Source: Mesostigma viride
Lineage: Eukaryota; Streptophyta; Mesostigmatophyceae; Mesostigmatales; Mesostigmataceae
Assembly: GCA_009746045.1 (NCBI GenBank)
Contig: RPFO01000102.1
Coordinates: 690,322-754,321, forward strand
Direction: 5' to 3'
Length of the DNA: 64,000 nt
The stretch's first letter is position 1. Each line of letters starts with the position of its first letter. Shown here in pieces: positions 30,329 to 54,319 of this stretch. The notes beneath the pieces are model-generated. The model worked only from the letters and a program-made list of their open reading frames with translations, did no database searches and was not told the origin of the DNA. The translations under genes and the position numbers were made by a program.

Positions 30329-30399
30329 ATTATTGTAATACAATCCTCATTCGCTCTCAGCTTTCGCAGTTGTTCGTCGTCCCTAGTCTCCATCCAACT

Positions 30400-30416
30400 T
30401 GGACTGAAAAGTTCGA
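30400..30416 (+). other. Primer-binding site of Copia-like 1
   Basis: tggactgaaaagttcga directly follows the LTR. TGG at the start pairs with the CCA end of a tRNA; the tRNA species is not identified. Confidence 0.55.
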
Positions 30417-30443
30417 TATTTTTTTTACAATCAAAAAAAAGAT

Positions 30444-33093: not shown

Positions 33094-33132
<39 letters not shown>

Positions 33133-35475: not shown

Positions 35476-36893
35476 AGTTTGTGTGTAAACATAAGCCAGC
35501 AGCAGATGGGTCAGTCATCTTTCATGCTAGACCTTGTGTGACAGAGTTCAAGGGCACCACTGATCTGACAGAGGCAGAGTTGTACACGCCAGGCATTCAG
35601 CAAACATCCCTAAAAATCTTGCTGTCTGTCTTTGTGGGTCATCTCAATGATGGGGATGACTATATCTGTAAGGCTACAGACATTAAAAGGGCTTTCCTGA
35701 AAGGCTCACCTGAGATAGCACAACAAGTGTGGCATGGTCAGGTGTACGTAGTCTCCACTCCCAGAGTTTGGGCAAAACACATCCCTCAGCAGTACCTGAA
35801 AGCTAACATAGGTGTTGAAGGGCTGCAATCAGCTCCTCGCATTTTCAGGATGTCAGCTCAGGCTGTGTTTGAAAAGTTAGGGGCTAGATATGATGACATA
35901 GACCCTTGCTTCTTTGTGGTCCCACACCCTCATGGCATTCTCACCTTTGTGTGGCATGGGGATGATCAGCTGATTGCTGGGCCAAGGCGTGCTGTGGATG
36001 ATTTTATTCAACAAGTGTCACAGCATTTTGAGATTGGCAAGCAAGTAGAGCTGGGCACCACTGCCATAAAATTTTGTGGCACAATGTTACAACTCCAGCA
36101 GCATCAAAACCAGTGGGTGTGTGCACTCTACTCTCCCAATGATTACATGCACAGCTGCTTGGAGGTTTTGCAAACAAAAATCAAACCTGGAGCCTGTCCT
36201 ACCATTAGAGGCAAGCTGGGGTGGTTGTGCTCAACGTGTGCACCTCACCTGGCTGTGGTTAGCAGAGTTGATGATGATGTCTTGATGCAAGTAGGTCACA
36301 AAGCCATCACCAAAACTCTCCAGGAGGGCCCTCCCCTTATCTTGCACTCCTTGGATCTCCACAAAACCATTCACATCCAAGCTATGATGGATAGTTCCAT
36401 GGAGTCCAGGCAGATTACCAAGATGCAGGCAAGGGAGTCAGGCTTGTATTTTGTGCAGAATGATGATGCACCCTTGTCTCTCATTTCATGGTACAGCCGG
36501 TTGCATAGACGCAAGGCTGTCAGCAGCAATGCTGCTGAGTGCAGGGCAGTGGTGTCAGCAGTGCTTCATGCCAGGTACTTGAATCATGTGCTGGTTTGGT
36601 TGCAGATGCAAGCAGGCAGCAATGCTGGGGTGGTGGCACACTTGCTCACTGACAGTCAGTCAGTCCTCAGTTTCCTTGCTAACCCCTATGCTGTCCACAC
36701 TGATCTTGACTGGGTGGTCCTGAAACAGGAGTCCACCTACTGGGAGTCCACCCGTCACGTGGAGGACAAACACAACGCTGCTGATGCACTCACTAAAGTG
36801 CCTCAGCAGGCAGCTGAACAATATCAGCTGTTGTACCACTTGATGAACCCCTATGGCAAGCAGGCAACCCTGCCCCATAGGGGGGACGCCTAG
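35466..36893 (+). CDS. Copia-like 1 reverse transcriptase and RNase H
   Basis: 475 residues. RT motifs: ATDIKRAFLKG (Copia QxDVKxAFLxG), GLQSAPRIF (GLKQxPR), and FVWHGDDQLIAG, where Copia elements have YVDD followed by LIxG; both catalytic Asp are kept. RNase H has D in MMDSSMESRQ, E in NAAECRAV, D in LLTDSQSVL and the HNAADALTK end. This is Copia-type architecture without a connection to integrase. The ATG at 35466 overlaps the end of the previous ORF, so expression by frameshift or from a fusion is likely. The ORF looks intact. Confidence 0.9.
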   Translation: MRLKFVCKHKPAADGSVIFHARPCVTEFKGTTDLTEAELYTPGIQQTSLKILLSVFVGHLNDGDDYICKATDIKRAFLKGSPEIAQQVWHGQVYVVSTPRVWAKHIPQQYLKANIGVEGLQSAPRIFRMSAQAVFEKLGARYDDIDPCFFVVPHPHGILTFVWHGDDQLIAGPRRAVDDFIQQVSQHFEIGKQVELGTTAIKFCGTMLQLQQHQNQWVCALYSPNDYMHSCLEVLQTKIKPGACPTIRGKLGWLCSTCAPHLAVVSRVDDDVLMQVGHKAITKTLQEGPPLILHSLDLHKTIHIQAMMDSSMESRQITKMQARESGLYFVQNDDAPLSLISWYSRLHRRKAVSSNAAECRAVVSAVLHARYLNHVLVWLQMQAGSNAGVVAHLLTDSQSVLSFLANPYAVHTDLDWVVLKQESTYWESTRHVEDKHNAADALTKVPQQAAEQYQLLYHLMNPYGKQATLPHRGDA

Positions 36894-37958
36894 CAGGGTC
36901 CTGTTCACCAGGGCCGCCTAGGTCACCCAGTACCCCTTGGGCAGGTCCAAGGGGTAGGTTGTGGCTTCCAGCAGGGGGGTTGGTTGGAGTCTGTTTTTCA
37001 TACATCTGCGTGCCCTATGCCCAATAAAATCTGTTTTGATTTTCTCAACACCATGGAATTTCGTTATGCACACCTTCATAGGTGGGCATGGGATGTATCT
37101 CACACCTTTATTCCCTAGGGCGTATGCCTTGGTGGAATGGCCTTGAGCTCAGTGGCTCAGGTGCCCCCATTCAAGTGGAGGGTCAAAGCTCCCTTGACAG
37201 GTGGTTACCCAGGACCCCAGTTCACTGTGGATATCCTGGGCCACCTGGCCTTACTGTTCAGTGGCAGTAAAGGCATGGGTGCTGTCATGTTGTCTAGTAC
37301 AACGTGCTCAGCACAGGTGCAGGATGAAATATTCCTGTCACCTGTCACCAGGACTTCAGTCACCCATGTGCAGGGCAGGGGTGGCTGGTCTCCCACGTTG
37401 TGCAGGTGCAATGTGGCCAGGTCCAGGATGTCATAGTCCTGTCACCTGTCACTCGGACTTCAGCCCCCTCTGTGCAGGGCAGGGGTGGCTGGTCCTCACA
37501 TGTTGTGCAGGTACAACATGGACAGTGCAGGGTGCAATAAACCTGTCCACTGTCACTCCTCAGGTTGCAGGTAACCTGAGCTCAGTTGACCCAGCCTGGC
37601 TGGGTATTTTCTCTCTGAGTGGGCGATGATGATGGAACAACATGGAACCTCTTAAACGGTTACCTTGGCATTTTTTTACAAGGCTCTCTTGGCTGGTGGT
37701 GCACTCCCTGGATAGGCAGACAGGCATAGCTATCTCCCTTGTGAGCTCGCGAGGAGGAGGAACTCCCCGGGCATGTTGAGCTAAACGTGATGCCATCACA
37801 AGTATTGCACGAGTTCTGGGGCCCATCTTTTTCAGTCCAGATGTTGCAGTATGGGTGTCAGTTGCTCAGCACCTCAGTCAGCTTGGAGTCAGTCTCCTAG
37901 CTGGGCAGGGTCAGGCTTGAAGTCGCTAGCCTTCAACCTGAAAGGAAAACATAATGGG
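36894..37958 (+). other. Copia-like 1 3' noncoding region with 104-bp direct repeat
   Basis: No ORF recognised. Two adjacent copies of a ~104-base unit (starting cctgtcacctgtcac) are at 37335-37437 and 37438-37541. A purine-rich tract (gaaaggaaaacataatggg) ends at the right LTR. Confidence 0.7.
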
Positions 37959-38413
37959 AGTTAGATGAGATGCTTAGGCTGACACACGGATTTCCGGCCT
38001 GCGCGCCGCGTATTGCCTACCGCGGCTGAGCGGGACACCTCAGTACAGTACGGCAGGGTGTACGGTACTGAGGTGTCATGTGGACCGATGTGCGGTTAGT
38101 GCCAGACTGTTCCTAGGTGCTAGCTCGACCCGCCAGGTCCGGTGTAGCCGGGCCTGACGGGCCGAGTCTTAGCTGGATGCTAGTGACGTGGTCGCATGGC
38201 ATTGCAGTGTACACTTGTCCACTGGTCGTGTGCTGCAGGTAGCACCGCCATAGGCATATAGGCGTAGCACTGGGGAGTGCCACAGCACCCGAGTCTGCCC
38301 AGTTCCATTCTGAGCCCTCAGCTTTCATCTCTCTCTCATTGTATTATTGTAATACAATCCTCATTCGCTCTCAGCTTTCGCAGTTGTTCGTCGTCCCTAG
38401 TCTCCATCCAACT
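37959..38413 (+). repeat. Copia-like 1 right LTR
   Basis: 455 bases with ends agttagatga and ccatccaact, followed by the CGAAC target duplicate at 38414-38418. Confidence 0.93.
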
Positions 38414-39662
38414 CGAACGCATCCAGTCGGCCTTGGCGCAGCTGGTCCCGGGCCCCGACCTCCCGCCACATGCTATTCGCATTGCCTCCCTGCCTGCACG
38501 GATGGGTGGCTGCGGTCTGACTCGTGCCGCCCGGCTGGCCCCAGCAGCATTTTTGGGCTCCGTCGCTCAGTCGTGGGCGGAAAGCTGCCGGCTCCTGCCC
38601 CTTTTGGCAACAGCAGCGCCTGACCTCCTGGACCCCAGCAGCCCTTTGCCCTTCGTCACCGCCATCCAGGAGGCCTATGCTGAGATCCAGCAGGCCTGTT
38701 CTCCCGTCCGTGCCGCTCAGGCGGTACAGCGCCACCTCCCTCGCGGCACTCCCTCGGTCGCCTCCGTTCAATCTCCCGCCGCATTCCCTGCTCGCGTCAT
38801 CGATAAACACCAGAAAACCTACGCGGGTATTCTGCACACGGCTGATTGGATTGCTCTTTTCGCGGACCTCAACGCCCAGGGACGTGCGTGGCTGTTCTCG
38901 CTTTCCTTGCGGAGTGTGGGCTCGGCGTACCTTCGTGCTCTTCCCATGGCCCCCCCATTCGCCTTGGCTCCCAGCCACTACTCGGTGGCGCTCCGGCACC
39001 AGCTATTTGCCCCGCAGCCTCTTGTTCCGGCCGGGCGGCCTTGTGGTAGCTGTGGGCAGCCGCTGGATCCCACGGGGACTCCCTACCTTGCCTGCATGGG
39101 GGGCCAACAGAATCAGAATTGGTATTTGTATTTGCACACTGTCCTCCTGACGGTGGTGCTCGCCATGATCCGGTCGGTTTTCCCCCACGCGAACATCCGG
39201 TCCGAGGATGCGGATGGCGCTGCCTTCTATTCCCCCAACCACCGGCCTGACATCGTGGTGCTGGACTTTGAGGGGGGTGGCCGGCATCTGCTTATTGACG
39301 TTTCGGTGGCGCGGCCCTTGGCTCTTAGCCACGTGGCTGGGGCCTCCCTCACGGCAGGTTACACGGCGGACCGGGCGGAGCGGGCCAAGCTCCTGGCCTA
39401 CGGCGACGTCGGGCACCATCGTGTGGTGCCCTTTGTCCTGGAGGAGTTTGGGGCCATGGGGCCCCTGACCTCCGCCTTCTTCAAGGAGTGTTGCCGGCTC
39501 CGGGAGGACCGGCTGGACCTGGAGGGCCAGCGGGCCCCATGGTCGGCGCGGACCTGGACGTCATATTGGCGTCAGCGCTTGTCGGTGGCGCTGACTCGGG
39601 CCATGGCTGACATCATGCTCCGCCGTACGCGGGCTGATTTTGCGGTGCAGCAGGGCTATTAG
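38414..39662 (+). CDS. LINE copy a C-terminal region with restriction-like endonuclease
   Basis: Encodes the end of a non-LTR retrotransposon protein. After a linker it has a zinc-finger-like segment CGSCGQPLDPTGTPYLAC and then a PD-(D/E)XK-like nuclease signature: HRPDIVVLDFEG with LLIDVSVARP. RLE nucleases of the R2/NeSL/Dualen groups nick the target to prime reverse transcription. In this copy the expected His of the CCHC finger is Pro; the second copy at 62120 has His there. The stop is at 39660-39662. The N-terminal part is truncated. Confidence 0.85.
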
Positions 39663-39807
39663 GTTCCTCCCGTTAGGCGTTTCCATTGGTCTTATCGTAG
39701 TATAGAGCTTTGACATGGCTCTGTATATAGGTTCATAGCTGGGCGTTTGCTTTGGTTTGAGTGATTTCACTCTGCTGTAAGTAATTATATTTTTAAAATA
39801 TATCCTA

Positions 39808-40202
39808 CGGCGACGTCGGGCACCATCGTGTGGTGCCCTTTGTCCTGGAGGAGTTTGGGGCCATGGGGCCCCTGACCTCCGCCTTCTTCAAGGAGTGTTG
39901 CCGGCTCCGGGAGGACCGGCTGGACCTGGAGGGCCAGCGGGCCCCATGGTCGGCGCGGACCTGGACGTCATATTGGCGTCAGCGCTTGTCGGTGGCGCTG
40001 ACTCGGGCCATGGCTGACATCATGCTCCGCCGTACGCGGGCTGATTTTGCGGTGCAGCAGGGCTATTAGGTTCCTCCCGTTAGGCGTTTCCATTGGTCTT
40101 ATCGTAGTATAGAGCTTTGACATGGCTCTGTATATAGGTTCATAGCTGGGCGTTTGCTTTGGTTTGAGTGATTTCACTCTGCTGTAAGTAATTATATTTT
40201 TA
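39808..40202 (+). mobile_element. 5'-truncated LINE copy b (395 bp)
   Basis: A duplicate of the last ~395 bases of the LINE. It was the first LINE to enter the chromovirus RT: the 12-bp target duplication AAATATATCATC is at 27879-27890 and 40203-40214. Copy a then inserted at the 5' junction of copy b. A 23-bp filler at 27893-27915 copies the adjacent target (27865-27887). Confidence 0.85.
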
Positions 40203-40214
40203 AAATATATCATC

Positions 40215-42295
40215 AATACGAGGTAGAGGGTATTTAGACTTCACAGTAATATCATTCAACTTCCTATAATCAGTAACTAGGCGAAACTTGCCATTTGGCT
40301 TAGGAACTAACAGGACACCAGCTGAGTAGGGGGAGTTACTAGGCTCTATCAATCCTGCTTCTAATAACGACACTAAAATCTGTTTTAGTTCCTTTAATTC
40401 GGTAGGGCCCATTCTATACATCGGAGAGTGCGTAGGAACTGCACCGTCCTTGATAATTACACGGTGTAAAACAGAACGAGGAGGAGGATAAGAAGGAGTC
40501 TTTTCTTCAAATACTTTTGAGGAATCTATCACAGCCATATATCTTACTATTTCATTTTCAGTAAATCCCACTCCTATTGTATCCACGGTATTTACATCTA
40601 TATCCACACTGTTATTCGTGATAGGTATCTCTTGTACTTCTAACTGAAGGAACATACATAATAGGTATCCATATTCCTTTAGTTCAGATCGCAGTTCGTC
40701 ATTGGACATTAATACTTCAGGTATAGGTCTCACAGGAGGATCAACAGGTGTAGGAGGAGTAATATCTACCAAGGATAAATTTTCTAGTCTATAATGACGT
40801 TCCGGTACCCAGTAAGAGCTATCTGGAAACCAAATAACCATAGTATCATAATTAATAGTAATCTTATTATCCTGGTGCCAATCTAATCCTAGTAATACAT
40901 CAGCTGTAGTGATAGGGCCTATAGTGGCCGTCAGGTTGACCGTACGTCCTTGTATGACCAGAGTTATTATAAATAGTGACGGAACCTTTTTGCCACTTGG
41001 GCAATTAGGTCCGTCACTATTTATCCGGCGAAAACCACTCGCCGGTATCTATTCCGCGTTAAGTTCACGTGAACGTGGCGCGGAATTGATACCGGCGAGT
41101 GGTTTTCGCCGGATAAATAGTGACGGACCTAATTGCCCAAGTGGCAAAAAGGTTCCGTCACTATTTATAATAACTAAAACGTCGTAGTGTGGGGGCCGAT
41201 ATCTATCGTACCGCTGATGCCTACTGCAGTACCGAATCTCGCCTTAACGATATTCCAACCGGGCATATTTTCCCTTCTGGCACTTTCGTTTGGCCTTCTG
41301 GTATCAATTCCTTCCGGTATTCGGAAATACCCGTGTCACCACAGGGATTCGAACCCCCGACTTACGAGGTCTTAGTTATTATAAATAGTGACGGAACCTT
41401 TTTGCCACTTGGCAATTAGGTCCGTCACTATTTATCCGGCGAAAACCACTCGCCGGCATCTATTCCGCGTTAAGTTCACGTGAACTTGGCGCGGAATTGA
41501 TGCCGGCGAGTGGTTTTCGCCGGATAAATAGTGACGGACCTAATTGCCAAGTGGCAAAAAGGTTCCGTCACTATTTATAATAACTAAGACCTCGTAAGTC
41601 GGGGGTTCGAATCCCTGTGGTGACACGGGTATTTCCGAATACCGGAAGGGATTGATACCAGAAGGCCAAACGAAAGTGCCAGAAGGGAAAATATGCCCGG
41701 TTGGAATATCGTTAAGGCGAGATTCGGTACTGCAGTAGGCATCAGCGGTACGATAGATATCGGCCCCCACACTACGACGTTTTAGTTATTATAAATAGTG
41801 ACGGAACCTTTTTGCCACTTGGCAATTAGGTCCGTCACTATTTATCCGGCGAAAACCACTCGCCGGCATCAATTCCGCGCCAAGTTCACGTGAACTTAAC
41901 GCGGAATAGATGCCGGCGAGTGGTTTTCGCCGGATAAATAGTGACGGACCTAATTGCCCAAGTGGCAAAAAGGTTCCGTCACTATTTATAATAACTACCA
42001 GGGGAAGGGACACCGTACCCGGGGAATGACTGGTGCGACCGTCAGCATAATGGACAGTGACCGTTTTTGTGTGAGGGGTAGGGACTAGTCCTAAACGCCT
42101 AACTAGGGCTTCGCTCACAAAGGAGCTAGCCGCACCGCTATCCACTAACACAGAGACATTCAAGAGTTCATCAGCATGCAAAAAGGGGTCTACAACAGTA
42201 TGAGGGACGGTTAAGCCACCATTCAAGAACATAAGAGGACGCACACGTAGTGGTAGGGATGATTCAGCTCCTACAGAGGTTATAAAAACAGGCAA
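40215..42295 (-). CDS. Chromovirus protease and RT N-terminal part, split by the palindromic element
   Basis: Protease: [20 protein letters not shown] (catalytic DSG) read at 42295-42002, then, beyond the 1,035-base insertion at 40962-41996, [14 protein letters not shown] (the LLGxDW end). RT starts further on with [20 protein letters not shown] and PLPRIDDIF, where the LINE insertion cuts it. With both insertions removed the frame is continuous to 27890 and on. Gag precedes it on the minus strand. Confidence 0.88.
41345..41407 (-). promoter_or_regulatory. Candidate Pol III A/B boxes, leftward
   Basis: On the minus strand TGGCAAAAAGG (41407-41397) matches the A-box consensus TRGYNNARNNG, and GGTTCGAATCC (41355-41345) matches the B box, 41 bases apart. 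The A box is in the central palindrome and the B box in spacer S. Confidence 0.5.
41552..41614 (+). promoter_or_regulatory. Candidate Pol III A/B boxes, rightward
   Basis: Mirror of the leftward set: A box TGGCAAAAAGG at 41552-41562 and B box GGTTCGAATCC at 41604-41614, 41 bases apart. The two sets diverge from the central palindrome. Confidence 0.5.
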
Positions 42296-42338
42296 GCAAA
42301 AATTATTATCTGGGGTACTATCTAAGGACCTGTCCAGG

Positions 42339-44084
42339 TTACCCCCGGCTGACAGGCCTACTGTTCCCCCTCCCCCCCAAATCCATAGGAACTAACCCCG
42401 AAGAAGACCCTGGCGGAAAAGCCACTGCTGGAGGGTCACGAGGGATTGAAGAGGGTGCGGGAGCCTGATTATCATAGGGGAACCCTGGGGATCCTGTCTG
42501 CACAACATTCAGCCTACTAGGGGTAGCTGAAGGAATGCGTCCTGAAGTGGGACGAATAGGAGCACGCTGAGGGGTACGAGGAGGGCGAGCGTCGGGATGA
42601 GGGGGAGCACCCGAAAGGAACTTGGGGCACTCACGTTTAAGATGACCTACTTCCTTACAATGATAGCAGGTGATATGAGAGACATCCAGAGCTGAAAGGT
42701 CAGTCACACAAATATCTAATTCTTCTACATAGGAGTTCTCCTCCTCAGGGGTAAGGCTAATATTATTAATACGGGAACGGGTAGGGAGAGAAGGCGTGGA
42801 GAAGAAATCTGCTACTCGTAAAAGATGCTGGCGCACATGCTTGAGGGGCAGGTCAGTAAAACGGTAGGCAGAGAACTGGCGCTTGACTTCACGCAATAAG
42901 GGTCTACTGAGGCCCTGAAGGAAGCGGGCACGCACTTCTGCGCCCGACAAATCCCTAATGCGTACCATCTGGGCATCAAACTCTTTCATATATTCTTTGA
43001 AGGATTTGGTACCCTGCTGCAAGGTACCAAAGGATAATCTATCCTGCCAATCTGCATCGGGAGGGACCAAATGGTTCTCTAAACGCTTGAACAATTCTGC
43101 TACAGAGTTTGGGTAGGCATGAGAGGCAAGAGACTCACACTGGATGAGGTTAGCAAGCTCAGGGGTAATGCAGGTAGTAAGATAATGAGGAACTAGTACA
43201 GCATCAGAGAGGCGCCACCTATTGTGGTTCTGCCAGGACTCTGTGTTCTGGGTGAGCAACATAATGAAGGTGAAAAACTGTTGAGGGGTAGACTTGACAT
43301 CCAGCTTGGGAAGGTTAGCAAAGAGGGGAAGAGCAGGAGGCTTAGGGGGATTAGAAGAGTCAGTTTTTCCCATAGGGCCACTATCTTCCACTGCTATATA
43401 AGCGGGATAGAAGGAAGGAAGAGGAAAAGTCTTGGGTAGGGGTCTAGAGGGAGCCACCGTTTCAGGATGGTGCCCATAGGAGAAGGGAACAGTATATTGC
43501 TCACGAAGAGAGGAGTAGGCAAAATGATCATAATTTCTATCATCTAGGGGCATGGTGCTGAAATCACTGTTAACTTCTAATTCAGCCACACGGGTAGGGA
43601 CCTGGGCTGCCTCATAGGCCGTCTCAGGGTAGGACCAGGAAGCAGGTGGGTAAAAGGGAACTGCACTAGGGCGCCCAGAAGGGCCTACAGGGGCAGAGGC
43701 ACGACCCGTGTTAAAAGCAGGCATGGAAGGCACAGGGTGGGAAGGAGGCCTAGCAACATTGTTGGTTAGTGAGGACCTGCTGGGGGGTTGAGCCAAGGGT
43801 GCAGGAGGGGCAGGGGCCTGGTTCAGGGTGAGGGAAGGGTCTTCACTAAATCTGACATGCATACGTTGTTCATAGGTAGGAGGGGTAAGTGAGGGACGAC
43901 GGCGACCACCAGCAACAGGAGAAGGAGGTGAGGTACGCAGAATACCTTGAGGGGTGAGATGGTGTACCGTTTCCAAGGAGTCCCGTCGGTTACCACGAGT
44001 AGTGTTATTGTTATTATTATTAGTAGTAGTATTATTATTATTATTGGTAGGTATAGGCGACATATCTCCACCCACTGGATCCAT
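42339..44084 (-). CDS. Chromovirus gag
   Basis: 581 residues, start at the ATG at 44084 (MDPVGGDMS). An Asn/Thr-rich N-terminus and a Pro-rich region are followed by the capsid-like helical domain (DRLSFGTLQQGTKSFKEYMK, ARFLQGLSRPLLREVK, typical retrotransposon-gag signature), then one CCHC zinc knuckle CYHCKEVGHLKREC near residue 475, and a Pro-rich C-terminus. The frame closes near a C/G-run at 42371-42379. It packages the element RNA into particles. The protease follows on the same strand. Confidence 0.92.
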   Translation of the reverse strand: MDPVGGDMSPIPTNNNNNTTTNNNNNNTTRGNRRDSLETVHHLTPQGILRTSPPSPVAGGRRRPSLTPPTYEQRMHVRFSEDPSLTLNQAPAPPAPLAQPPSRSSLTNNVARPPSHPVPSMPAFNTGRASAPVGPSGRPSAVPFYPPASWSYPETAYEAAQVPTRVAELEVNSDFSTMPLDDRNYDHFAYSSLREQYTVPFSYGHHPETVAPSRPLPKTFPLPSFYPAYIAVEDSGPMGKTDSSNPPKPPALPLFANLPKLDVKSTPQQFFTFIMLLTQNTESWQNHNRWRLSDAVLVPHYLTTCITPELANLIQCESLASHAYPNSVAELFKRLENHLVPPDADWQDRLSFGTLQQGTKSFKEYMKEFDAQMVRIRDLSGAEVRARFLQGLSRPLLREVKRQFSAYRFTDLPLKHVRQHLLRVADFFSTPSLPTRSRINNISLTPEEENSYVEELDICVTDLSALDVSHITCYHCKEVGHLKRECPKFLSGAPPHPDARPPRTPQRAPIRPTSGRIPSATPSRLNVVQTGSPGFPYDNQAPAPSSIPRDPPAVAFPPGSSSGLVPMDLGGRGNSRPVSRG

Positions 44085-44175
44085 CTTTAATTACGTAAAG
44101 GAATAGGAATCTAGAAGAAAGCAACAAAGGAAAAAGGAAAAACCTTGAAGGTCTGAAGCAAGAACAAGATTAAAA

Positions 44176-44568
44176 TCAATCCTTTTCGACAACAGTAATG
44201 GATAGGGAACCAAACTCCAAAGTGAGAGGAGTATCTGAAGCAGATGCAGATGCAGCCCGTTTAGGGGGAGAAGAAGGAGGGGTAGCAAAGACTAGAGCTT
44301 CTACTGGAGGACGACCATGAGGAATAGGGCGTACATGCAGGCCTAAATCTGTTTGGCTATGATCTATAAGGAACTGCTGAGCTTCTTCGAAGGACATAAA
44401 TTTCTTATACCTAATTACGTTGTATACACGATTCTGAACGATCTTCCTAGCGTCGGACCAAGAAAGGAAAATGGAGGACCATTGAGGCGTAATCACTACG
44501 TAATATTTAGCTAGACTATTATCGCTAGAAGAATGGGAAGGAGCAGTAAAAGATCGCCGCTGGCTCAT
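44176..44568 (-). CDS. RNase H1 N-terminal (viroplasmin-like) domain protein upstream of gag
   Basis: 130 residues, start at the ATG at 44568. Residues ~21-70 (YYVVITPQWSSIFLSW..., then KKFMSFEEAQQFLIDH) match the RNA:DNA hybrid-binding fold of eukaryotic RNase H1 N-termini and caulimovirus viroplasmins: YY.V..G...G-I/F..W..c...V.......YK.F.s.eEA..fl. The rest is Ser/Pro-rich with an acidic end, probably disordered. It lies alone 91 bases before the gag start, inside the element, and is transcribed with it. In RNase H1 this domain increases affinity for hybrids and processivity, so a role with the cDNA hybrid or in shielding element RNA is an inference. The element's own RNase H is elsewhere in pol. 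The domain match is from pattern recognition. Confidence 0.72.
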   Translation of the reverse strand: MSQRRSFTAPSHSSSDNSLAKYYVVITPQWSSIFLSWSDARKIVQNRVYNVIRYKKFMSFEEAQQFLIDHSQTDLGLHVRPIPHGRPPVEALVFATPPSSPPKRAASASASDTPLTLEFGSLSITVVEKD

Positions 44569-45080
44569 GTTAACGCACCTGGTAGGTCTTGAGGAGTCAA
44601 ATGAGGAGAACGAGGAGAAGGCGACTTATCTCGAGTGTCTGAAACCGAACCAGATTGACGACGCACGCAGGGACGAGGTTTCCAGCGCCAGGTGGTCGTA
44701 AGTATCCGGTTTCAAGAATTCTGCGTCCGGCGATGGGTCGTCTAAATGCAAAGCAGGCAAGATGCAGAAAAAGTGTAATCTACGAGACGCTAGCCGTCTC
44801 TCTATCGTCGAACCAAAACCAGCAACTGTCTACGGCAGTAAACCACCTTTCTAAGGAAAACAAGACGAGGAAAAGGAGCTATCTACGAAAGGATTTTCCG
44901 CTTCGAGCAGGTCTATCTTCTAGGCAGGGCGTGTCCTGAATCAGGCAGCACTACCCCCCCAGCTCGCAGGCGACCCGCCCATTACCTGTCAAGTAGGTGT
45001 CGTCTTCATTTTCCCAGCCGCGGAAGGGTTGATTCAATGACGTATGTTGCAAAGGATCGTCGTCTCGCTCTCTATCTAAA

Positions 45081-45095
45081 CTTCCTCCGAGTCCA
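45081..45095 (-). other. Primer-binding site of the chromovirus
   Basis: On the minus strand TGGACTCGGAGGAAG begins one base after the 5' LTR, consistent with priming by a tRNA 3' end. The tRNA is not identified. Confidence 0.6.
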
Positions 45096-45096
45096 T

Positions 45097-45669
45097 TGTT
45101 ACGCCGCAAGCCTCGGCCGCCACCTCTACCTCTACCTGTCCTGATACTACCTAAACTAGTGAGGCCGCTTCTATTTACACCCCTAGCGAAAGACGAACGA
45201 GACGAACCAGATCTCAATGCATTTACATATGTACTACTGTAATATGCCATAGGCCATTTAACCGAAACCCGTTTACTCCAGGAAAAGAGGAAGGAAACAC
45301 AACTACACTGCCGTGACCCAAGCCTAAATGTGTTAATTCATTTAACACACGCCGAGTGCACGCACAAGGGGTAGAATGCGCATAAATGGTCACCAACGGT
45401 CCAACACGCTCGGGCCGACATGGCCCTCGCCTACGGATGCACGCTGGTCCACTACATCTACTGATGCACGCTGGTCCACTACATTCTACCACAGGATCAG
45501 GACCACTAGTAAAGTACGCGGCGCGGCGCCCAACGGCACCCAATGTTCCACTGTACTGTTACGAGGACAATAATGTCCCTGTAGGAGCCTAAACGTAAAC
45601 CTAGGGACAACCGAGGCAAAAGACCTAATTTACGTCCGTAACTACAACGAATTGTTACGCGACGTAACA
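45097..45669 (-). repeat. Chromovirus 5' LTR
   Basis: 573 bases with ends TGTTACG...CGTAACA, followed on the plus strand by the CATGA target duplicate (45670-45674). Confidence 0.93.
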
Positions 45670-45674
45670 CATGA

Positions 45675-47012
45675 AGATGGCGTCCTGCACGGCTAAGAAA
45701 ATAAAACGCAACGCTACGCTATGTCTTTGCTGCGACTAGGTGGATTCGGTGAAAAGGAAAGAACGCAACCATGAAAATGCATCAGAAAGAGAGCAGGTAG
45801 TACCCCGGTAGGTAGTACGCCTCACCATCGGCATCGCCAGTTACGTCCCGTGGCAAAAAATCCAGCGTTCTTTCCAATATGATGACACCAGAAACTCGTC
45901 GGCCCCACCCCACGCCTTCCACGAACAGCAAACTGATTTTACTAGGCACCCAGTACGTAAAGCAATTAAGCATGATACTACAATACCTAAATCTACAACG
46001 ACATTCCATTTCCAGGTCGCCATAGCGACGCGGACCTCTCCCACGCAGGTATCACTCCGTTGACGCACCTCCAGCTCAGAAAATTTCGTACTTGCTCTTC
46101 AAACATAAAATTTTGACGTATAAAACCATGGCTGCGCATTCCCCATCCCAATTTTCTAGCGTACGTTTCCTGCCATCGCCAGCCAGCAAATTGCTCGCGG
46201 AGCACGTCACTTTGTTTTTCGTCCGGCGGCGTGGCCTGCGGCTGCGTCGTTTCGGTGGTCTTATCGATTTCGGGTCGTTTCCGTTGGATTTGTGACCGTT
46301 AGGGCCGAAGGCCGTTTGTTTTCCGTAGTTTGCTTGTTTTGTATTGGTTGTTTGGTGATTTAGTATTTGTACGGACGACCCGAGCCGCTAACTTAGCGGG
46401 TTTATCGCGTCCGTTGGATCCATCATCGGACGCTCCAGATTGTCGGCGGCTAACGTTTTAACTTTTTTCATTTTGCCTTCGTATACAGTTTGCCTAAGGC
46501 TTGCTAGAGTATGTAACTATGTATGATTGATGACAGTTTTTTTTTTTTTTTTGAGACTATATCGTTAGGTAAAGGTGTACCACGTAGCGACGAGCTGGTT
46601 ACCCAAGTTGGTTACCCAATCCAGTCATTCACTCTTCAGCTGTTGAGTGTTGGGTGACTCGGGTCGCATGCAGTAGGATTTCGGCATTCTACGTTCAACG
46701 TTGTTCATGTTATGTTTGATTATCTTTACTTCTCCAGTTACTATGCCAAGCCCCCCCCCCAAGCTGACGCGGACGCGTCAGCTTTTCCCCCACCGCCGAT
46801 TCTCCGCACCCCGCACCCCCCCACCCACCTAGATTAACGGACCCCCACACACCCCGGCAGCCCGCAGTTCCCCCGCGCCACTTCCCCTGCGTTTGCCACC
46901 GGAACTACCCTCGCCCAGGCAGTTTCCCTTTCCTTCTATTCGCTGCTACTCTCATCCTCCCCCAAGCCCGAGGAGTCTTCCCGTCTCTTCGAACAGCTCA
47001 GCTCCGGGCACC
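45675..47012. other. Host spacer between the chromovirus and Copia-like 2
   Basis: No gene recognised. Contains a T-run plus gagactatatcg (46531-46564) also seen at 20592, and a strong hairpin aagctgacgc-ggac-gcgtcagctt at 46761-46784 next to a C-run. The phrase cgcgccacttcccctgcgtt at 46875 recurs twice at 56065-56120, on the other side of Copia-like 2. Confidence 0.5.
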
Positions 47013-47017
47013 CCACG

Positions 47018-47633
47018 AGTTAACGTAAAGGATTTACGTTAGATGGATAGAGATTGTTACGCTCTTTCCAACGGCACCTTGAACGCCTCATTTGGTTAAG
47101 GAACGTAAAAGTTATGACGTTTCCTAGGCTGTGCCGACAGTACCCGGCGCGCCACTGTGGGCGCGTACGGACACAGGATGTACAAGTGTCACTTTGATAG
47201 TCCGCAGGACGTTGACAGGACTTGTACAGGACTTGATGGTCAATTGATAGGTAGGCGTGCTGTAGCGCGCCAGGACCTATGAGACAATTGATGCTGAGTA
47301 GTGTACGGATAGGTCCACAGGACTAGCCGTATGGACAATTGATAGATCTGCGCGCCAAAGGCGTGCCAGAGTCTGTGTAATCAATTGATTGACAGTTCAG
47401 CTGTGACAGTACAGCTGAATACTTGGACGCGTCCCTAACAACCTATATGTGTGACTTGGTCGCACCGGGACGCTAGTTCTTGCGTGCACGTTCTCTTGGC
47501 ACTGCGACCCTGTCGTCTGTGCTGCGTGCAGTCTTGGAAGTGACGTGACTTACGTCTGTGTTTCCTGTTATTAATAAAGGCAACTTCCTGCAAGAACCAT
47601 GGCGGAATTCGTGGCATCCTCACTCTTACAACT
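47018..47633 (+). repeat. Copia-like 2 left LTR
   Basis: 616 bases. Contains four CAATTGAT motifs at 47241, 47285, 47336 and 47382 and an AATAAA at 47574-47579 near the 3' end. Identical by eye to 55270-55885. Confidence 0.95.
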
Positions 47634-47657
47634 CGTATTACACGCCTCGTTAAAAAG

Positions 47658-48374
47658 ATGCCAAATTCTGAAGAATTCCGGATTCCCACCGATGAGGAAA
47701 TAGCCGCTCCGCCGGCTGGTCCTCCATCAAGACCGACTGCGCCGTCGTGGCAGCAATTGCTCGACGAAGTCACGATCTCGCTCGACGAACTTCATCGTCG
47801 GCAACGCGCAGTTCTTCCGTTGCTCGGGGATAACCCCGAGGACCCCGATTTGCCACAGCTGGTGCCGGCTATCCGCACGCCGTTGGACACCATTCGCAAC
47901 ATTTTGTCGCAATTTACGGTCCAGGTGCGGGGAGGTTTGCGGTCGGTGAACGAGGTCACCACCGCCATCGAGGAGCTGGACAACGCCATCTCTTCACTCA
48001 CCGGTTACCAGAGAAACTTACAAAACTGGGCATCGCTACGCACGGGGGGCGCACCGGCGGTGTCGACAAATTTATTTCAAGATCTCGCGTTGCTGTCGCT
48101 GCTCACACGCGGCGTACGCAGTCGCGAACGCCAGGTTCTTATTAACCTGGTGGCTTTTCTCGCATCTCTGCGAGAGTGGATTCCCGCAGGGTGGGAATTG
48201 TTATCCATTTTTACTCATCCTCTGCGCCTCGTCGCGCGTCGGGCGCGCGCAACTTTCGCGACGGGAAGCACACCGGTTTTAATACATACCGGTGCAGGTC
48301 CGGCACACACGCCGGATATGGAGGATCCTGAGTATACCTACGAGTACTGTGATTTCCGGGGCCTTGACTACTAG
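47658..48374 (+). CDS. Copia-like 2 ORF0, unknown helical protein before gag
   Basis: 238 residues starting 25 bases after the left LTR (ATG at 47658). An acidic, Pro-rich N-terminus is followed by a predicted all-helical region (SWQQLLDEVTISLDELHRRQ, TAIEELDNAISSLTGYQRNL) and a moderately hydrophobic stretch (ERQVLINLVAFLASLREWIP) followed by a basic patch (LRLVARRARATF). It ends acidic and Tyr-rich. No recognised domain. It is separate from gag, which starts at 48541. It is intact, unlike the gag and pol frames. Possible roles such as membrane or nucleocapsid association are inference only. Confidence 0.6.
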   Translation: MPNSEEFRIPTDEEIAAPPAGPPSRPTAPSWQQLLDEVTISLDELHRRQRAVLPLLGDNPEDPDLPQLVPAIRTPLDTIRNILSQFTVQVRGGLRSVNEVTTAIEELDNAISSLTGYQRNLQNWASLRTGGAPAVSTNLFQDLALLSLLTRGVRSRERQVLINLVAFLASLREWIPAGWELLSIFTHPLRLVARRARATFATGSTPVLIHTGAGPAHTPDMEDPEYTYEYCDFRGLDY

Positions 48375-48540
48375 GTCGGCCAATTTTCTTTTCCAGTACT
48401 CGTCGACAATTTTGTCGATTTTTCAACGGCAATTCGCGGGGGCGGAGGCGACACCGGCGCAGGCGGCAGTGGCGACAATTTTGTACATACTCTGTTCTGC
48501 TGCTGTGCTGAGGTGTTTTTTGAATAGCTTGTAGTGCAGA

Positions 48541-50696
48541 ATGGCAGACGGGCGCCGGAGCAAAGGTGCCCCAGCCAGTGGGAATAATGGTGGTGCTGGT
48601 AGTGGGACCGCTCACGTAGATGACGTGGGGGTAGTTATTATAAATAGTGACGGAACCTTTTTGCCACTTGGGCAATTAGGTCCGTCACTATTTATCCGGC
48701 GAAAACCACTCGCCGGCATCTATCCCGCGTTAAGTTCACGTGAACTGCACGCGGAATTGATGCCGGCGAGTGGTTTTCGCCGGATAAATAGTGACGGACC
48801 TAATTGCCCAAGTGGCAAAAAGGTTCCGTCACTATTTATAATAACTAAAACGTCGTAGTGTGGGGGCCGATATCTATCGTACCGCTAATGCCTACTGCAG
48901 TACCGAATCTCGCCTTAACGATATTCCAACCGGGCATTTTTCCCTTCTGGCACTTTCGTTTGGCCTTCTGGTATCAATTCCTTCCGGTATTCGGAAATAC
49001 CCGTGTCACCACAGGGATTCGAACCCCCGACTTACGAGGTCTTAGTTATTATAAATAGTGACGGAACCTTTTTGCCACTTGGGCAATTAGGTCCGTCACT
49101 ATTTATCCGGCGAAAACCACTCGCCGGCATCAATTCCGCGTTAAGTTCACGTGAACTTGGCGCGGAATTGATGCCGGCGAGTGGTTTTCGCCGGATAAAT
49201 AGTGACGGACCTAATTGCCCAAGTGGCAAAAAGGTTCCGTCACTATTTATAATAACTAAGACCTCGTAAGTCGGGGGTTCGAATCCCTGTGGTGACACGG
49301 GTATTTCCGGATACCGGAAGGAATTGATACCAGAAGGCCAAACGAAAGTGCCAGAAGGGAAAATATGCCCGGTTGGAATATCGTTAAGGCGAGATTCGGT
49401 ACTGCAGTAGGCATCAGCGGTACGATAGATATCGGCCCCCACACTACGACGTTTTAGTTATTATAAATAGTGACGGAACCTTTTTGCCACTTGGGCAATT
49501 AGGTCCGTCACTATTTATCCGGCGAAAACCACTCGCCGGCATCAATTCCGCGTGCAGTTCACGTGAACTTAACGCGGAATAGATGCCGGCGAGTGGTTTT
49601 CGCCGGATAAATAGTGACGGACCTAATTGCCCAAGTGGCAAAAAGGTTCCGTCACTATTTATAATAACTGGGGTTACCGGAGAGATTACCAACATTCATC
49701 ACAATAATAATAATGCACAAGCTGTTCATGGTTTTGACCTTACCACTCAGGGATTATTAATTGTAAATCAGCTGCAACCTGTGACATCTGACTCTAAGCC
49801 TAAGCAGGCTGAAGAGTTTGTAGAAGGGCTGGAAGGGTTTCCTAGTTTGTACGGGGGTACCAACTACTATCAGATCTGGATAGGCAGCAGCACGTTTGGC
49901 AAGTGCACTGATCAGATCAAGGACCTAACCAGGGAATGTAAGAAGGCCAACAAGGCCTGGGCAGTGTATGTAGCTGAGCTGAAGGAGTTGCTTGAAGACC
50001 AGCGAAAGAAGGTCGGCATCCATTGGCAAGACAAGTATCAAGGGTGGGAGGTCAAGGGGGATCTCATCCAGAATTTCCTTAGCTATTGCAAAATGGTTGA
50101 GGAAGGCAGGGCCCACGGTTTCAACGTGGCAGATAACATAGCCCTGACCAACTGGTTGAAGGTCTCTGGGCTGGATAAGGCTACACGTGGCTCTTTAAAG
50201 GTCATGTGTGCCCCACACTCAACCCTCAAGGCCTACAAGGTCATAATCAAACAAGCACTCGAGGCAGAGGAGCTGTTTGAGGGTGGAGTGCCAGCAGTGA
50301 AGGCTACCCAGGCAGGTGGGCGTACCCAGGGGGCTCCAAGACGTCTGAGGCTGACAGAAGCCAAGGAGGACGAGGGGCAACCATAACAAGCGCAAGGGCG
50401 ATCATTCACCCGACTCTGACAGGAGGTCACACTCCAAGTCGGTGTTCAGGCGGGTGGGTGGTAAGCCCAAGCAGGGCAACGCGCCTGACAACGGGGGAGG
50501 AGGCCAGGGCAAGTCAAAGATACAATGCTACCTGTGCAAGGGGTGGGGGCACATCAAGAAGGAGTGTCCCAGCTTCAAGAAGTCCCAGGGCCAGGGCAGC
50601 AACAAGAATAACAACAACAACAAGAAGAAGAACAACAACAAGTCCCAGGGCCAGCCTTCAAAGGGCAGTCAGCAAGAAGACAACAAGGAGCAGTGA
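48541..50696 (+). CDS. Copia-like 2 gag, split by the palindromic element and frameshifted
   Basis: It begins MADGRRSKGAPASGNNG at 48541, is interrupted at 48632, resumes at 49675 (TGEITNIHHNNNNAQ) and runs to 50386. A frame change near 50380 leads to the zinc-knuckle part (50400-50696) with CYLCKGWGHIKKEC and a Lys/Asn/Gln-rich basic tail. The core has gag-like helices (LKELLEDQRKKVGIHWQDKY, NWLKVSGLDKATRGSLK). Confidence 0.75.
49015..49077 (-). promoter_or_regulatory. Candidate Pol III A/B boxes, leftward (copy 2)
   Basis: Minus-strand A box TGGCAAAAAGG (49077-49067) and B box GGTTCGAATCC (49025-49015), same spacing as in copy 1. Confidence 0.5.
49224..49286 (+). promoter_or_regulatory. 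Candidate Pol III A/B boxes, rightward (copy 2)
   Basis: A box TGGCAAAAAGG at 49224-49234 and B box GGTTCGAATCC at 49276-49286, mirroring the leftward set around the central P block. Confidence 0.5.
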
Positions 50697-50837
50697 CTGT
50701 CTGAGGCAACCCCTACACACCTTAATTCACCCAGGGGGGAGGCCAGGTGCTCCAATGCAGATTTTATATCTGGGCAACAAGAGGGTGATCTCCAGGTTCA
50801 GGGTGGCCCCAGGTCACCTGGAGAGGTACAGGTTCCT

Positions 50838-52559
50838 ATGAAGACGTCCTTGACAGCTGATGCAGCTGTAAGTATGTCTGACCCTATGCATCCTCGTGCT
50901 GGGCACGAGGGTGGACCTCTCATTTTGAGAGAAACCAATGTACAACCACAGAGGGGTGTGAAGGCCTCTGGTGGTATGCATGTGGTCCCTGCTGGCGGTC
51001 CAGGTGTTGGGCATGAGCAGGGTGACTCAGGCTCTGAGTCAGAACAGGATGGAAGTCAGCATGGTGATGCTGGACAACCTGACAGCACAGTCCTGACTGT
51101 GCCAGGGACTGCTTCCTCTGTGTACCAGGAGTTGGGTGCCCGAATCCACAACATGTTTGGGCATGCCACTTCTCTGTCAAACAACTTTGCCTTCCGTATG
51201 GGCAGGGCACCCCTTCTTAAGGCGTGTCAGCAAGCTGCCTCACGGTGTAAGTGCCAGTTGTCCTCCAACAAGCCCAGGAAATCACATGCCAAAGCTCTAC
51301 CTCAGAGCATTGGTGATCTGCAGTGTGATATCCAACACATCAGGGGCATGCAACTGTTGGTGTGCGTGGACAGGTACACGAAATACAAGGTGCTAGAGCA
51401 TTTACCTTCTATGAAGAACAGGTACTTGCTGGCTGCCCTGCAGAATGTAAGAGCCAAGTTTCCTACCACAAGGATCCAGGTGGACATGCAGTTTCAGCAT
51501 CTCAAGGGTGATCCTACCCTTCCTGAGTTGCTGGTTACACCTAGGGAGGCTCATGGGCAGCAGGGTGCTATCGAGAGGGCAATCCAGGAGGTCAAGAAAT
51601 TGATCATCTCTGAAGACTGGGTACCCTTGTCTGCACCTGCACTTGTCAGGAGTGCATGGCTGAGGAACGTGGAGCAGCAGCTGAACAGCAGGGTTAACTT
51701 CTACTATGATGGAGTTGCTGTCAGCCCAATGGGTCTATATCATGGCCTGTGCCCACCACATGTGCTGGAGGGCTGGAAACATGCTGCACATGTCACCTTT
51801 GCCAAGCTGAGGGAGAAGGACCGGGGTTGGAAGATGCTGGAGCCACAAGTGGGTCAGAAGGTCCTAGCTTGGAAGGAACCTAGCCTTTATGGCAAACGTG
51901 GTAGCTGGAGTCCTGGGGTGGTTACCCAGGTTGATGAAGCTAGCCACGCATGCTTGGTCAGCATGGAGGACGAACCAAAGCATGTGCACCGGCTGAGTTG
52001 GTCATATGTCAAGCCTAACCTGATGAATGAGGGCAGTCAGGCACAAGGCTCACAGGATCTGCAGGATTTTCAGGTCCCAAGTGACATCACTGACGCAACG
52101 ACCACATCTGTTGCAGGGGAATCTGTCAGCCCTGGCCAGGTTGCAGAGGTACTTGTTGAACAGGCTGCAAGGTCAACAGCTGGGGAGTCAACTGTCAAGC
52201 CCAAGGCACTAACCAAGCCCAGGGGGACAAGTTTGGCTGGATTGATTGGGGCTCTACAAAGAGCCAAGAAGCAGCCCAAGGTAGCCAAGCTCAGGTGGCA
52301 TGGCAATCTGGGGCTGGACACTGCCTTAGAGGTAGACACTAATTCTCAGGTTTCCATCATTGGGACCAGGGCTGCAGCAGGGTACAGCATGTCTGAACCC
52401 AGCTATCAGTTTGTGTCTGACTTCAGTGGCGGGGTACACGTGAAGGTACTGGGTGAGGTATTCATTCCTATCCTTGGACAGGACACTGCTTTTTGTGTCT
52501 TGGAGGGCTATCAAGGACCTGCTCTTCTGGGGCAGAATTTCCTATGCCAGGATGGGTAG
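50838..52559 (+). CDS. Copia-like 2 integrase and protease-like domain
   Basis: 573 residues. HHCC-like zinc site: IHNMFGHATS ... ACQQAASRCKC (the last pair is CxC). Catalytic D in LQCDIQHIRG, D in IQVDMQFQHL and E in QGAIERAIQEVK, 30 residues after the second D, as in Copia-like 1. A C-terminal DNA-binding-like segment follows. The protease-like part reads EVDTNSQVSIIG (DTN in place of DTG) and ends PALLGQNFL. The frame ends at 52559 within the protease, and the expected continuation (VVITSSLLTK) is in the next frame, so there is a frame break or a frameshift site at ~52555. Confidence 0.85.
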   Translation: MKTSLTADAAVSMSDPMHPRAGHEGGPLILRETNVQPQRGVKASGGMHVVPAGGPGVGHEQGDSGSESEQDGSQHGDAGQPDSTVLTVPGTASSVYQELGARIHNMFGHATSLSNNFAFRMGRAPLLKACQQAASRCKCQLSSNKPRKSHAKALPQSIGDLQCDIQHIRGMQLLVCVDRYTKYKVLEHLPSMKNRYLLAALQNVRAKFPTTRIQVDMQFQHLKGDPTLPELLVTPREAHGQQGAIERAIQEVKKLIISEDWVPLSAPALVRSAWLRNVEQQLNSRVNFYYDGVAVSPMGLYHGLCPPHVLEGWKHAAHVTFAKLREKDRGWKMLEPQVGQKVLAWKEPSLYGKRGSWSPGVVTQVDEASHACLVSMEDEPKHVHRLSWSYVKPNLMNEGSQAQGSQDLQDFQVPSDITDATTTSVAGESVSPGQVAEVLVEQAARSTAGESTVKPKALTKPRGTSLAGLIGALQRAKKQPKVAKLRWHGNLGLDTALEVDTNSQVSIIGTRAAAGYSMSEPSYQFVSDFSGGVHVKVLGEVFIPILGQDTAFCVLEGYQGPALLGQNFLCQDG

Positions 52560-54319
52560 TGATCACGTCCTCTCTCCTGACTAAGGAAGGGGCTGGTCAG
52601 GTCCCACTGATTAATTTCAGGACCACTCACCTATCACGTGCAGTAACCAGGTCGGTTAAGCGTGTGCAAGTGTGCCAGGGGCAGGAGCCCTTGGTTGATG
52701 ACCTCATACTGCCAGCTGCTAGTCATCCAAGCAGTTTGGGCATTGGTCCTCACTCACTTGCTGGACACAGCCCTATCAACTACCAAGGCCTGGTGAAGCT
52801 CATGTCCTCTCCCATTATGTGTCCCCAGGTCACACTGGGTCTGATTAAATCTGGGGAGGACTGGATCTCCAAGAAATGCGTGGAACCTGTCAATGACCTG
52901 CCTCCTGCACGACGTCTACTCAAGCTCAAGTTTGTCATCAAGATGAAGGAGGTGGACGGGGTCAAGGTACCACATGTCAGGCCAGTGCTGAATGAGTTCA
53001 AGGGTACTGGTGAGTGCACTGCTGAGGAGTTGTATACCCCTGGCATGCTGCATGACACTTGGAGGCTGCTGCTGTGTGTATTTCTAGGCCTTCTCAACAA
53101 GGGCTTGGACTATGGCTCAGTGGTGGTAGACTTCAAGAGGGCATTTCTGGAGGGGATGCAGATGTGGCACAGGAAAAGTGGGAGGGCAAGACGCCTTTCT
53201 ATGTTAGGGTGCCTGCTGTATGGAAAAGGGACATCCACACGGAGTTCCTTAAAATCCTCAAGGGCCTGGAGGGCCTGAGGTCAAGTCCAATAATCTGGAG
53301 GGAGACTCTCAACCGTTTCCTGAAGGAGCATTGCAACTTGAAGGTCTCTCCTGTAGACCCCTGTCTGTTTCTGGGGCAATGGGAAGGCCTGCCAGTGTAT
53401 GCTTCGCTGCACGGGGATGACCTACATCTGATAGCTCCCACGTCGTGGCTTAAGGAGCTGATCTCCATCATTAAGTCCAAGTTTCCTCTGGGTAGGGAGC
53501 AATGGCAGGTGGAGAATGAGCCTCTGCTGTTTGTGGGCATGGAGGCCACACTGGTGAAGAAGGGGGGAGTGGCGTATGCTGCTGGTGGGGGGCAATGATT
53601 ATCAAGAGACCCTCATTAGCAAGCTTCCTCCAACCATCACACAGGCACTGTGTCCCATGGTGAGGGGCATGGTTGCTTGGGTGGCAGGCATTTCCAGGCC
53701 AGACCTTATGGTCATAGCCAGGTTGCCTGATGACATGCTGGTGGAGCTAGGGTCTGCCAAGGTGGCTGATCAGGTCAGGGCTTCATCTGGCATTCTGTTG
53801 TCTGCAGTGGATTTATCACAACCCATTTGCATGGAGCTGTATGTGGATAGCTCAATGGACAGCAGGCAGGTCTCCAAGGTCAGGGGCAGGGCTGCAGGGC
53901 TCTTTGTGCTCAGACAGGAAGGCCTGGGGAGTTTGGTGAGCTGGTTTAGTCGCCTGCACAAACGGGTGGCTGTCAGCAGTGATGTGGCAGAATGCAGGGC
54001 TATTTGTGAAGGCATTCACACAAGCCTTTATCTGAAGGAGTTGCTTCATCAGATGACTTCTAACACTCCTTGGCCACTTCAGGTTACCACTCTTCTAAAA
54101 ACAGACTCCATGGGGATGGTGCAGTTTGTGCACAGGCAGATGGCCAGAAGTAGGGACTTGGATTATCTCCTTCTTAAGGAGTTGTCCTCCTTGGCCAATA
54201 TTGAGCATATCCCTGGGGTTGACAATCCTGCTGATGCTTTGACCAAGCTAGTGCAGAAGGCAGCAGTGCAATACAAGGTTCTTCAGTCTCTGATGGACCC
54301 ATCTCAGCAAGCTGTCTAA
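52560..54319 (+). pseudogene. Copia-like 2 reverse transcriptase and RNase H, frameshifted
   Basis: Three frames in series. Frame one (to ~53165) has LKLKFVIKMKEV and VVDFKRAFLEG. Frame two (~53165-53585) has GLRSSPIIW and YASLHGDDLHLIAP, the catalytic motif being HGDD. Frame three (53585-54319) has the RNase H: D in LYVDSSMDSRQ, E in DVAECRAIC, D in LKTDSMGMV and the NPADALTKL end. The matched domains and the same odd HGDD motif show common descent with Copia-like 1. Confidence 0.85.

Follow-up and report, generated by a model that had tools for sequence, protein, structure and literature searches.

A 64-kb stretch of the Mesostigma viride genome (the window, meaning the whole stretch of DNA that was analyzed) carries two copies of a mobile element made up mostly of palindromes, E1 (40962-41996) and E2 (48633-49669). 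The family to which they belong is probably a non-autonomous, DNA-type fold-back element resembling miniature inverted-repeat transposable elements (MITEs), in which the terminal inverted repeats (TIRs) are themselves palindromes. The original prediction had described two such copies with the block order P-S-P-S'-P and clean 5-bp target duplications, and this was confirmed by the coordinates, by the identity of each copy to its own reverse complement and by joining of the flanks.

Structure and insertion sites of the two window copies

Both copies (E1, 1035 bp; E2, 1037 bp) are arranged as P-S-P-S'-P. P is a near-perfect palindrome of 212-214 bp and S is a spacer of about 198 bp, which is inverted at its second occurrence (S'). 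When the copies were compared over their full length with their own reverse complements, the identity was 98.5 % for E1 and 98.8 % for E2. E1 and E2 are 98.3 % identical to each other. Their parts are as follows.

40957-40961, no strand: left 5-bp target duplication of E1, ACCAG
40962-41175, plus strand: E1 P1, palindrome of 214 bp, left terminal inverted repeat
41176-41373, plus strand: E1 spacer S, 198 bp
41374-41585, no strand: E1 P2, central palindrome of 212 bp, tip of the 1-kb hairpin
41586-41783, minus strand: E1 spacer S', S inverted
41784-41996, minus strand: E1 P3, right terminal inverted repeat, 213 bp
41997-42001, no strand: right 5-bp target duplication of E1, ACCAG
48628-48632, no strand: left 5-bp target duplication of E2, GGGGT
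48633-48846, plus strand: E2 P1, 214 bp
48847-49043, plus strand: E2 spacer S, 197 bp
49044-49257, no strand: E2 P2, 214 bp
49258-49455, minus strand: E2 spacer S', 198 bp
49456-49669, minus strand: E2 P3, 214 bp
49670-49674, no strand: right 5-bp target duplication of E2, GGGGT

When palindromic arms of 100 bases were scored at every position of the window, the six P centres scored 0.77-0.98. The rest of the window, used as the control, reached a maximum of 0.47 (mean 0.25, sd 0.05). Smaller stem-loops can form within each half of P. The core of P is slightly asymmetric (TTAA in one half, usually CCAC or CCAA in the other) and P therefore has a direction. The ends of S are imperfect inverted repeats (14/20 bases), and random pairs of 20-mers match equally well in 0.0065 % of cases.

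The first ~40 bases of S' (41586-41625 in E1 and 49258-49297 in E2) resemble by eye the 3' part of a tRNA (GGGTTCGAATCCC; T-arm and acceptor-like). ARAGORN detected no tRNA gene in the element and Rfam gave no tRNA match, the best being mascRNA-menRNA (13.6 bits, E-value 3.2). No poly-A tail was seen by eye in E1 or E2.

Both copies lie within long terminal repeat (LTR) retroelements.

40200-44084, minus strand: part of an LTR retroelement with Retrotrans_gag and zf-CCHC matches, probably of Ty3 type; E1 interrupts its protease-like stretch
47018-55885, plus strand: Copia-type element A, target duplication CCACG; it hosts E2 near the start of its gag-like open reading frame (ORF)

The LTRs of Copia A (47018-47633 and 55270-55885) are 616 bp long, identical, and have the termini AGTTA...AACT. 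At an E-value of at most 0.001, two database proteins are related to the gag-like ORF next to E2, and both are named as proteins of M. viride (P0005, identity of 87 % across 36 % of the query; P0006, 76 % across 22 %). When the flanks of each copy were joined with one copy of the duplication removed, the frame was open across the junction in both cases, and it was broken when both copies were kept. Since the frame is open only with a single duplication copy, both ACCAG and GGGGT are genuine target duplications, with AGTT...AACT as the exact boundaries of the element.

Copies across the genome

The genome searched was the 440-Mb M. viride assembly (2243 contigs) that contains the window. E1 as a query gave 316 candidates, of which 40 were scored. 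The 39 scored loci besides E1, together with E2 (L049) and E1 itself, form a first set of 41 copies, which is biased toward full copies because it was chosen by likeness to E1. A set of 78 loci (L010-L087) was compared for layout; 40 were picked by likeness to E1 and 38 came from lists of P ends, so shares among them are not genome-wide frequencies. The P terminus (25 bases, at most two mismatches) was found 906 times in the assembly. At six ends per P-S-P-S'-P unit, this count corresponds to about 150 such units. The scored copies are 96-99 % identical to E1 and, judged by this likeness of sequence, the family is young.

The copies form a ladder of sizes consisting of solo P (~214 bp), P-S-P (monomer, ~626 bp), P-S-P-S'-P (dimer, ~1037 bp) and four-P forms (~1450 bp), and the dimer was the commonest among the fetched copies. 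S in forward orientation (S+) precedes the inverted spacer (S-) around the central P in 41/41 copies of the first set, two of which (L039 and L044) carry an extra P and S-. The P-S+-P-S--P layout was present in 47 of the 78 loci. A layout that recurs this often cannot be due to chance and is very unlikely to be an artefact of assembly. The element is mobile and mostly made of palindromes, and the original prediction was right that the ~1-kb unit moves as one.

A sample less biased as to form was drawn from the P ends preceded by C or G (78 + 83 exact matches). These 161 listed outer ends gave 38 close pairs, namely 22 dimer-sized, five monomer-sized, four solo-P-sized and seven other pairs. 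The remaining 85 ends were unpaired, as expected in part, because partners beside A or T were not in the list.

In 39 of the 41 first-set copies, a script detected a 5-bp duplication. The other two, L018 (AGGGG) and L043 (CTACA, by eye), have a damaged first P, and thus all 41 copies carry a 5-bp duplication. They represent 32 or 33 independent insertions, as the rest share flanks through copied larger segments or a minisatellite. Duplications of 5 bp were also found in 11/11 later pairs, a set picked because both ends were known, and by script in 12/18 (L064 doubtful; CCCCC in L055) and 13/20 further loci. Overall, a 5-bp duplication is present in most copies whose two ends are intact. Eleven of the 13 loci without a duplication are L050, L051, L059, L060, L065, L066, L077, L078, L081, L082 and L087, where an end P is damaged, missing or interrupted, or where the contig border intervenes. 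The original prediction had proposed a search for P-S-P and solo-P insertions with 5-bp duplications, and such insertions exist. Examples include the monomers L068, L069, L072, L084, L090 and L091 and the solo P L067, L088 and L089, with L055 as a weak case given its CCCCC duplication. Four-P forms with 5-bp duplications are L039, L044 (first P truncated) and L061.

In L088 and L089, the solo P is composed of two outer halves, as expected from loss of the stretch between the P1 and P3 cores, and deletions in or beside the central P were found in L063, L071 and L075. L100 is a 94-bp mini-palindrome of P end sequence with the duplication TAACT. An inverted P-end pair spanning 69 bp (G000:C2045:1151245-1151313) is known from the pattern match alone. 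L083 is a tandem pair of dimers with a common P and a further P 13 bp on. In L021-L023 and L034-L036, the element copies lie within a minisatellite, were multiplied along with it and have common flanks.

Other mobile elements appear to have inserted into P. At G000:C114:363754 and G000:C667:2510652, the start of the Ty3-type LTR (TGTTACGTCG) comes immediately after base 19 of P. L070 (5.08 kb) is a monomer with a 4.45-kb insert in its first P (L070:2387-6836), which has an apparent 3-bp duplication and the ends CACTAGGAACTCGGGAGTGG...CCACTCCCGAGTTCCTAGTG. By its ends the insert is of CACTA type, and it lacks an ORF of 120 aa.

Long reads are known to produce inverted duplications as an artefact, for example as palindromic reads from missed adapters. 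However, the P-S-P-S'-P unit recurs at dozens of loci that differ in their flanks and have duplications of exactly 5 bp, private mutations distinguish the copies, and the frames are open across both empty sites. We therefore give an assembly or sequencing artefact practically no weight. A published M. viride assembly was built from 113x PacBio reads (N50 11.2 kb) and optical maps, with 2363 scaffolds and a genome rich in LTR elements (PMC6947507); it may differ from the 2243-contig assembly used here.

Orientation of the outer palindromes and retroelement alternatives

The two outer P of a copy were compared both in inverted and in direct orientation. In the six intact monomers, they differ at 0, 0, 2, 1, 6 and 1 positions when inverted and at 8, 8, 8, 9, 8 and 9 positions when direct. 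For the same comparison, 47 loci whose two outer P were both at least 205 bp long were used, eight duplicate loci having been dropped. The mean number of differences was 3.7 inverted and 10.8 direct, and 22 loci had no inverted difference at all. The inverted comparison was closer in 44 of the 47 loci, with two ties (L017, symmetric P; L064, poor P match) and one reverse case (L033). With the outer P inverted in nearly all loci, P proves to be a terminal inverted repeat. For almost all of these copies, this excludes canonical LTR copying as the final step.

A primer binding site (PBS) beside P, including one of TGG type, and a polypurine tract (PPT) before P were looked for by eye in E1 and E2 and none was seen. 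Purine-rich tracts precede the 3' LTRs of both Copia-type elements of the window (A, above, and B, below). The view of P as an LTR-like block, held in the original prediction, thus has to be given up on the orientation of P and the lack of a visible PBS or PPT. The same applies to its statement that the structure does not match fold-back descriptions, as the element broadly fits the fold-back/MITE class after all. The hairpin-capable RNA envisaged in the original prediction might aid or silence the element.

A terminal-repeat retrotransposon in miniature (TRIM), that is, a miniature LTR retrotransposon with P as palindromic LTRs, arranged in tandem and partly inverted via recombination, was first entertained for the AGTT/AACT ends, which are as in the local Copia-type elements. 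It was dropped on the inverted P of the monomers. TRIMs by definition have direct terminal repeats and reverse transcription would regenerate direct LTRs, whereas the terminal repeats here are inverted in 44/47 loci and in 6/6 P-S-P copies. An inversion within a direct tandem array was also considered; it could explain the polarity of the dimer but not the inverted P in monomers. The likeness to tandemly arrayed TRIMs such as Zma-SMART and Cassandra lies in the solo, two-, three- and four-block forms with common blocks, in similar block and spacer lengths and in the 4-6 bp duplications (PMC4717578). TRIM arrays with several LTRs are known from the same source and from PMC6934838. The Mesostigma element differs from them in its inverted terminal blocks, in the inverted second spacer of the dimer and in the lack of a PBS or PPT by eye, although some Copia elements and TRIMs have no normal PBS either (PMC5445492 and PMC6934838). 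Taken together, a TRIM origin appears very improbable.

The window contains a second Copia-type element whose ends resemble those of P.

28171-38413, plus strand: Copia-type element B, LTR termini AGTTA...AACT, target duplication CGAAC

The RVT_2 match of Copia B (2.2e-8) is above the curated cut-off and that of Copia A (0.00099) is below it. The integrase-containing ORFs of A and B are 32 % identical. The LTR start of Copia A, with a non-T base ten before it, has 1175 matches in the genome. The Copia A flanks come from the first 100 places in the list, excluding PPT-flanked ones and any with a T at the tenth base upstream.

As the main rival to a fold-back element, the family could be a parasite of Copia integrase, in which P imitates the AGTTA...AACT LTR ends of the local Copia lineage and that lineage's integrase inserts a linear DNA copy of the element, made by hairpin replication or self-priming, with its 5-bp stagger. 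It would then be a DNA passenger of retrotransposons instead of a MITE that depends on a transposase. Both full Copia-type elements of the window begin with AGTTA, end with AACT and have 5-bp duplications, and Copia A is abundant. The Ty3-type LTRs of the window instead read TG...CA by eye. The Mesostigma element has a weak symmetric target preference, with G as the third base before the duplication and C as the third base after it, and G at -3 is favoured alike in Copia A (28/46 left flanks) and in the element (35/60 flanks). G at -3 could, however, be shared by many families, as Copia A was the only one compared. T at -2 occurs in 6/46 Copia A flanks against 27/60 element flanks (Fisher p 0.0006, uncorrected for several positions), and the composition of the duplication centre also differs. 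The common sequence comprises only the last 4-5 bases; neither P nor S has significant similarity to the LTRs of Copia A or B (best E-value 0.57). Integrase requires a linear donor, and none is in evidence. The target-site data thus favour it only partly, and we consider this explanation possible but doubtful.

Two further features of the Copia-type elements were observed. In both, a protease-like motif follows the integrase-like region (VDTQAQVSII and VDTNSQVSII; 32758-35475 and 50838-52559), which we take to be that of an aspartic protease; the usual Copia order has the protease before the integrase. The 5' LTR of Copia B contains an insert of ~1.77 kb (28563-30336) with the 8-bp duplication ATTATTGT, and without this insert and one copy of the duplication it is identical to the 3' LTR.

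Likeness of the arms, proposed mechanism and significance

The two arms of a copy resemble each other more than they resemble the arms of other copies. In E1 and E2, every arm mismatch outside the P2 core is private to one arm of one copy, and four positions that separate E1 from E2 are mirrored on both arms. When 27 non-duplicate dimers were analyzed, own arms differed by 4.2 positions as against 9.1 when arms were shuffled among copies (0/5000 shuffles as low). In eight of these dimers the arms are identical. Changes unique to one copy were present on both arms in 17 alignment columns (~12 separate events) in eight copies. With duplicates counted, 33 dimers give 66 arms, of which 35 have their own sister arm as the nearest or a tied nearest one and 21 as the sole nearest. 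In the printed part of the arm tree, the left and right arms of many copies group together and others are separate. On these sequence comparisons, the arms are copied or corrected from each other, if not always, and homogenisation is real but incomplete.

A fold-back element with palindromic TIRs would account for these data as follows. A trans-acting DDE-type recombinase would act at AGTTA.../...TAACT with a 5-bp stagger. The P-S-P form may have originated as two P flanking a 198-bp segment. The dimer would then arise when a palindromic P end folds back and primes copying of S and the far P, which places S and S' around one central P. Snap-back is the best explanation of the dimer because it gives exactly one central P between inverted spacers. 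Repair of hairpin or cruciform heteroduplexes would keep the arms alike, and recombination or slippage between palindromes could produce the solo P, monomers, four-P forms and central-P deletions.

Several observations weigh against this interpretation. Snap-back at either end of P-S-P predicts dimers of both polarities, but the 41 first-set copies and the 47 layout loci all read S+ then S-. Either snap-back is one-sided or, as the fixed polarity suggests, the dimers go back to one founder. Neither a transposase nor an autonomous relative was detected; the sole pattern search aimed at one was wrongly framed and gave only P relatives. DNA transposons with 5-bp duplications are uncommon, 5 bp being usual for Copia, and the termini of the element match those of Copia A and B. 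L073 and L079, both nearly complete solo P, and L099, an old solo P that is 82 % alike, have no 5-bp duplication. As for the arms, 53 private changes in the 27 dimers are confined to one arm, and L032, L034-L037 and L040 have unlike arms with 10-16 differences; homogenisation is thus not automatic. E2, moreover, differs between its arms at four positions, even though its host Copia A has LTRs identical over 616 bp, and so arms are not perfectly remade at each insertion.

A related question is whether, at many insertions, a P-S-P monomer gives rise to a new dimer palindrome in rolling-hairpin style, or whether the dimer is inherited as such and then homogenised. Monomers interleave with dimers by arm sequence: L072 has one difference from both arms of L085, L068 has two from the arms of L011, L012, L013 and L077, and L069 has two from both arms of L010. 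The dimers with identical arms also fit. However, the monomers can also be explained as deletion products of dimers, the dimers have a single polarity, and some of them have clearly unlike arms. Repeated re-formation is therefore judged unlikely.

Self-complementary parvovirus dimers and Tetrahymena ribosomal DNA offer a likeness to the proposed snap-back, as a palindromic end folds back and primes copying to give an inverted dimer with one central palindrome. This is an analogy only, as the Mesostigma element inserts with target duplications and no replication protein or extrachromosomal form was seen. It is quite improbable, though conceivable, that the family is a purely DNA parasite, copied as hairpins, which imitates the LTR ends of an abundant Copia lineage so as to use its integrase, and which multiplies as self-primed palindromic dimers in the nucleus of this streptophyte alga, with a parvovirus-like rolling-hairpin lifestyle.

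Searches for relatives elsewhere were negative. E1 had no relatives in phages or plasmids, and translated P had no protein relatives. When short exact patterns were used, P and the tRNA-like motif were absent from genome_contigs, and P, the tRNA-like motif and S were absent from viral_contigs. The sole viral match (L001) is a 19-base match without further likeness and was taken as chance. The reverse transcriptase of Copia B had no match in viral_contigs. L081 was considered as an autonomous relative and was rejected: just half of P is present, and the DNA after it contains no ORF of 80 aa.

Among known systems, fold-back elements (FB and Galileo) and hairpin MITEs are similar to the Mesostigma element in that long terminal inverted repeats make up most of the element, and in their modular blocks, non-coding nature and target duplications. 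The duplications of FB and Galileo are 7-9 bp long as against 5 bp here. The Mesostigma element differs from these elements in that its TIR is itself a palindrome and in its ladder of P, P-S-P, P-S-P-S'-P and four-P forms with a common central P. Copia A and B of the same genome share with it the AGTTA...AACT termini and the 5-bp duplication, and Copia A also the G at -3; P and S are unlike their LTRs, and the other target positions differ from those of A. To our knowledge, no fold-back element has palindromic inverted repeats in a ladder of P, P-S-P and P-S-P-S'-P. A literature search, which was weak as it covered mostly abstracts and few subscription papers, found neither an element with a palindromic-TIR ladder nor AGTT-ended Mesostigma repeats. 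The family is best filed under fold-back/MITE elements, with the palindromic TIRs and the ladder as the new part.

Other repeats are also present in the window. Three tandem-repeat arrays were found (15606-16279, 16384-16807 and 17699-17908), and a tandem duplication of 408 bp is located at 39397-40211. Two inverted repeats of 1.39 kb (38419-39807 and 61401-62792) are 99.4 % identical, and an RVT_1 ORF (62940-63974) adjoins the second. The region 19221-19958 is condensin subunit 3-like, its single named database match being condensin complex subunit 3.

Elements of this kind may be broken up or misclassified by repeat finders that expect either direct LTRs or simple TIRs. Most copies of the family are inverted duplications with halves that tend to stay matched, and they provide a natural system for the formation, upkeep and correction of palindromes in a plant-lineage nucleus. 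The family could show whether hairpin repair or hairpin-primed synthesis copies the arms, and whether short non-coding DNA borrows a retrotransposon integrase.

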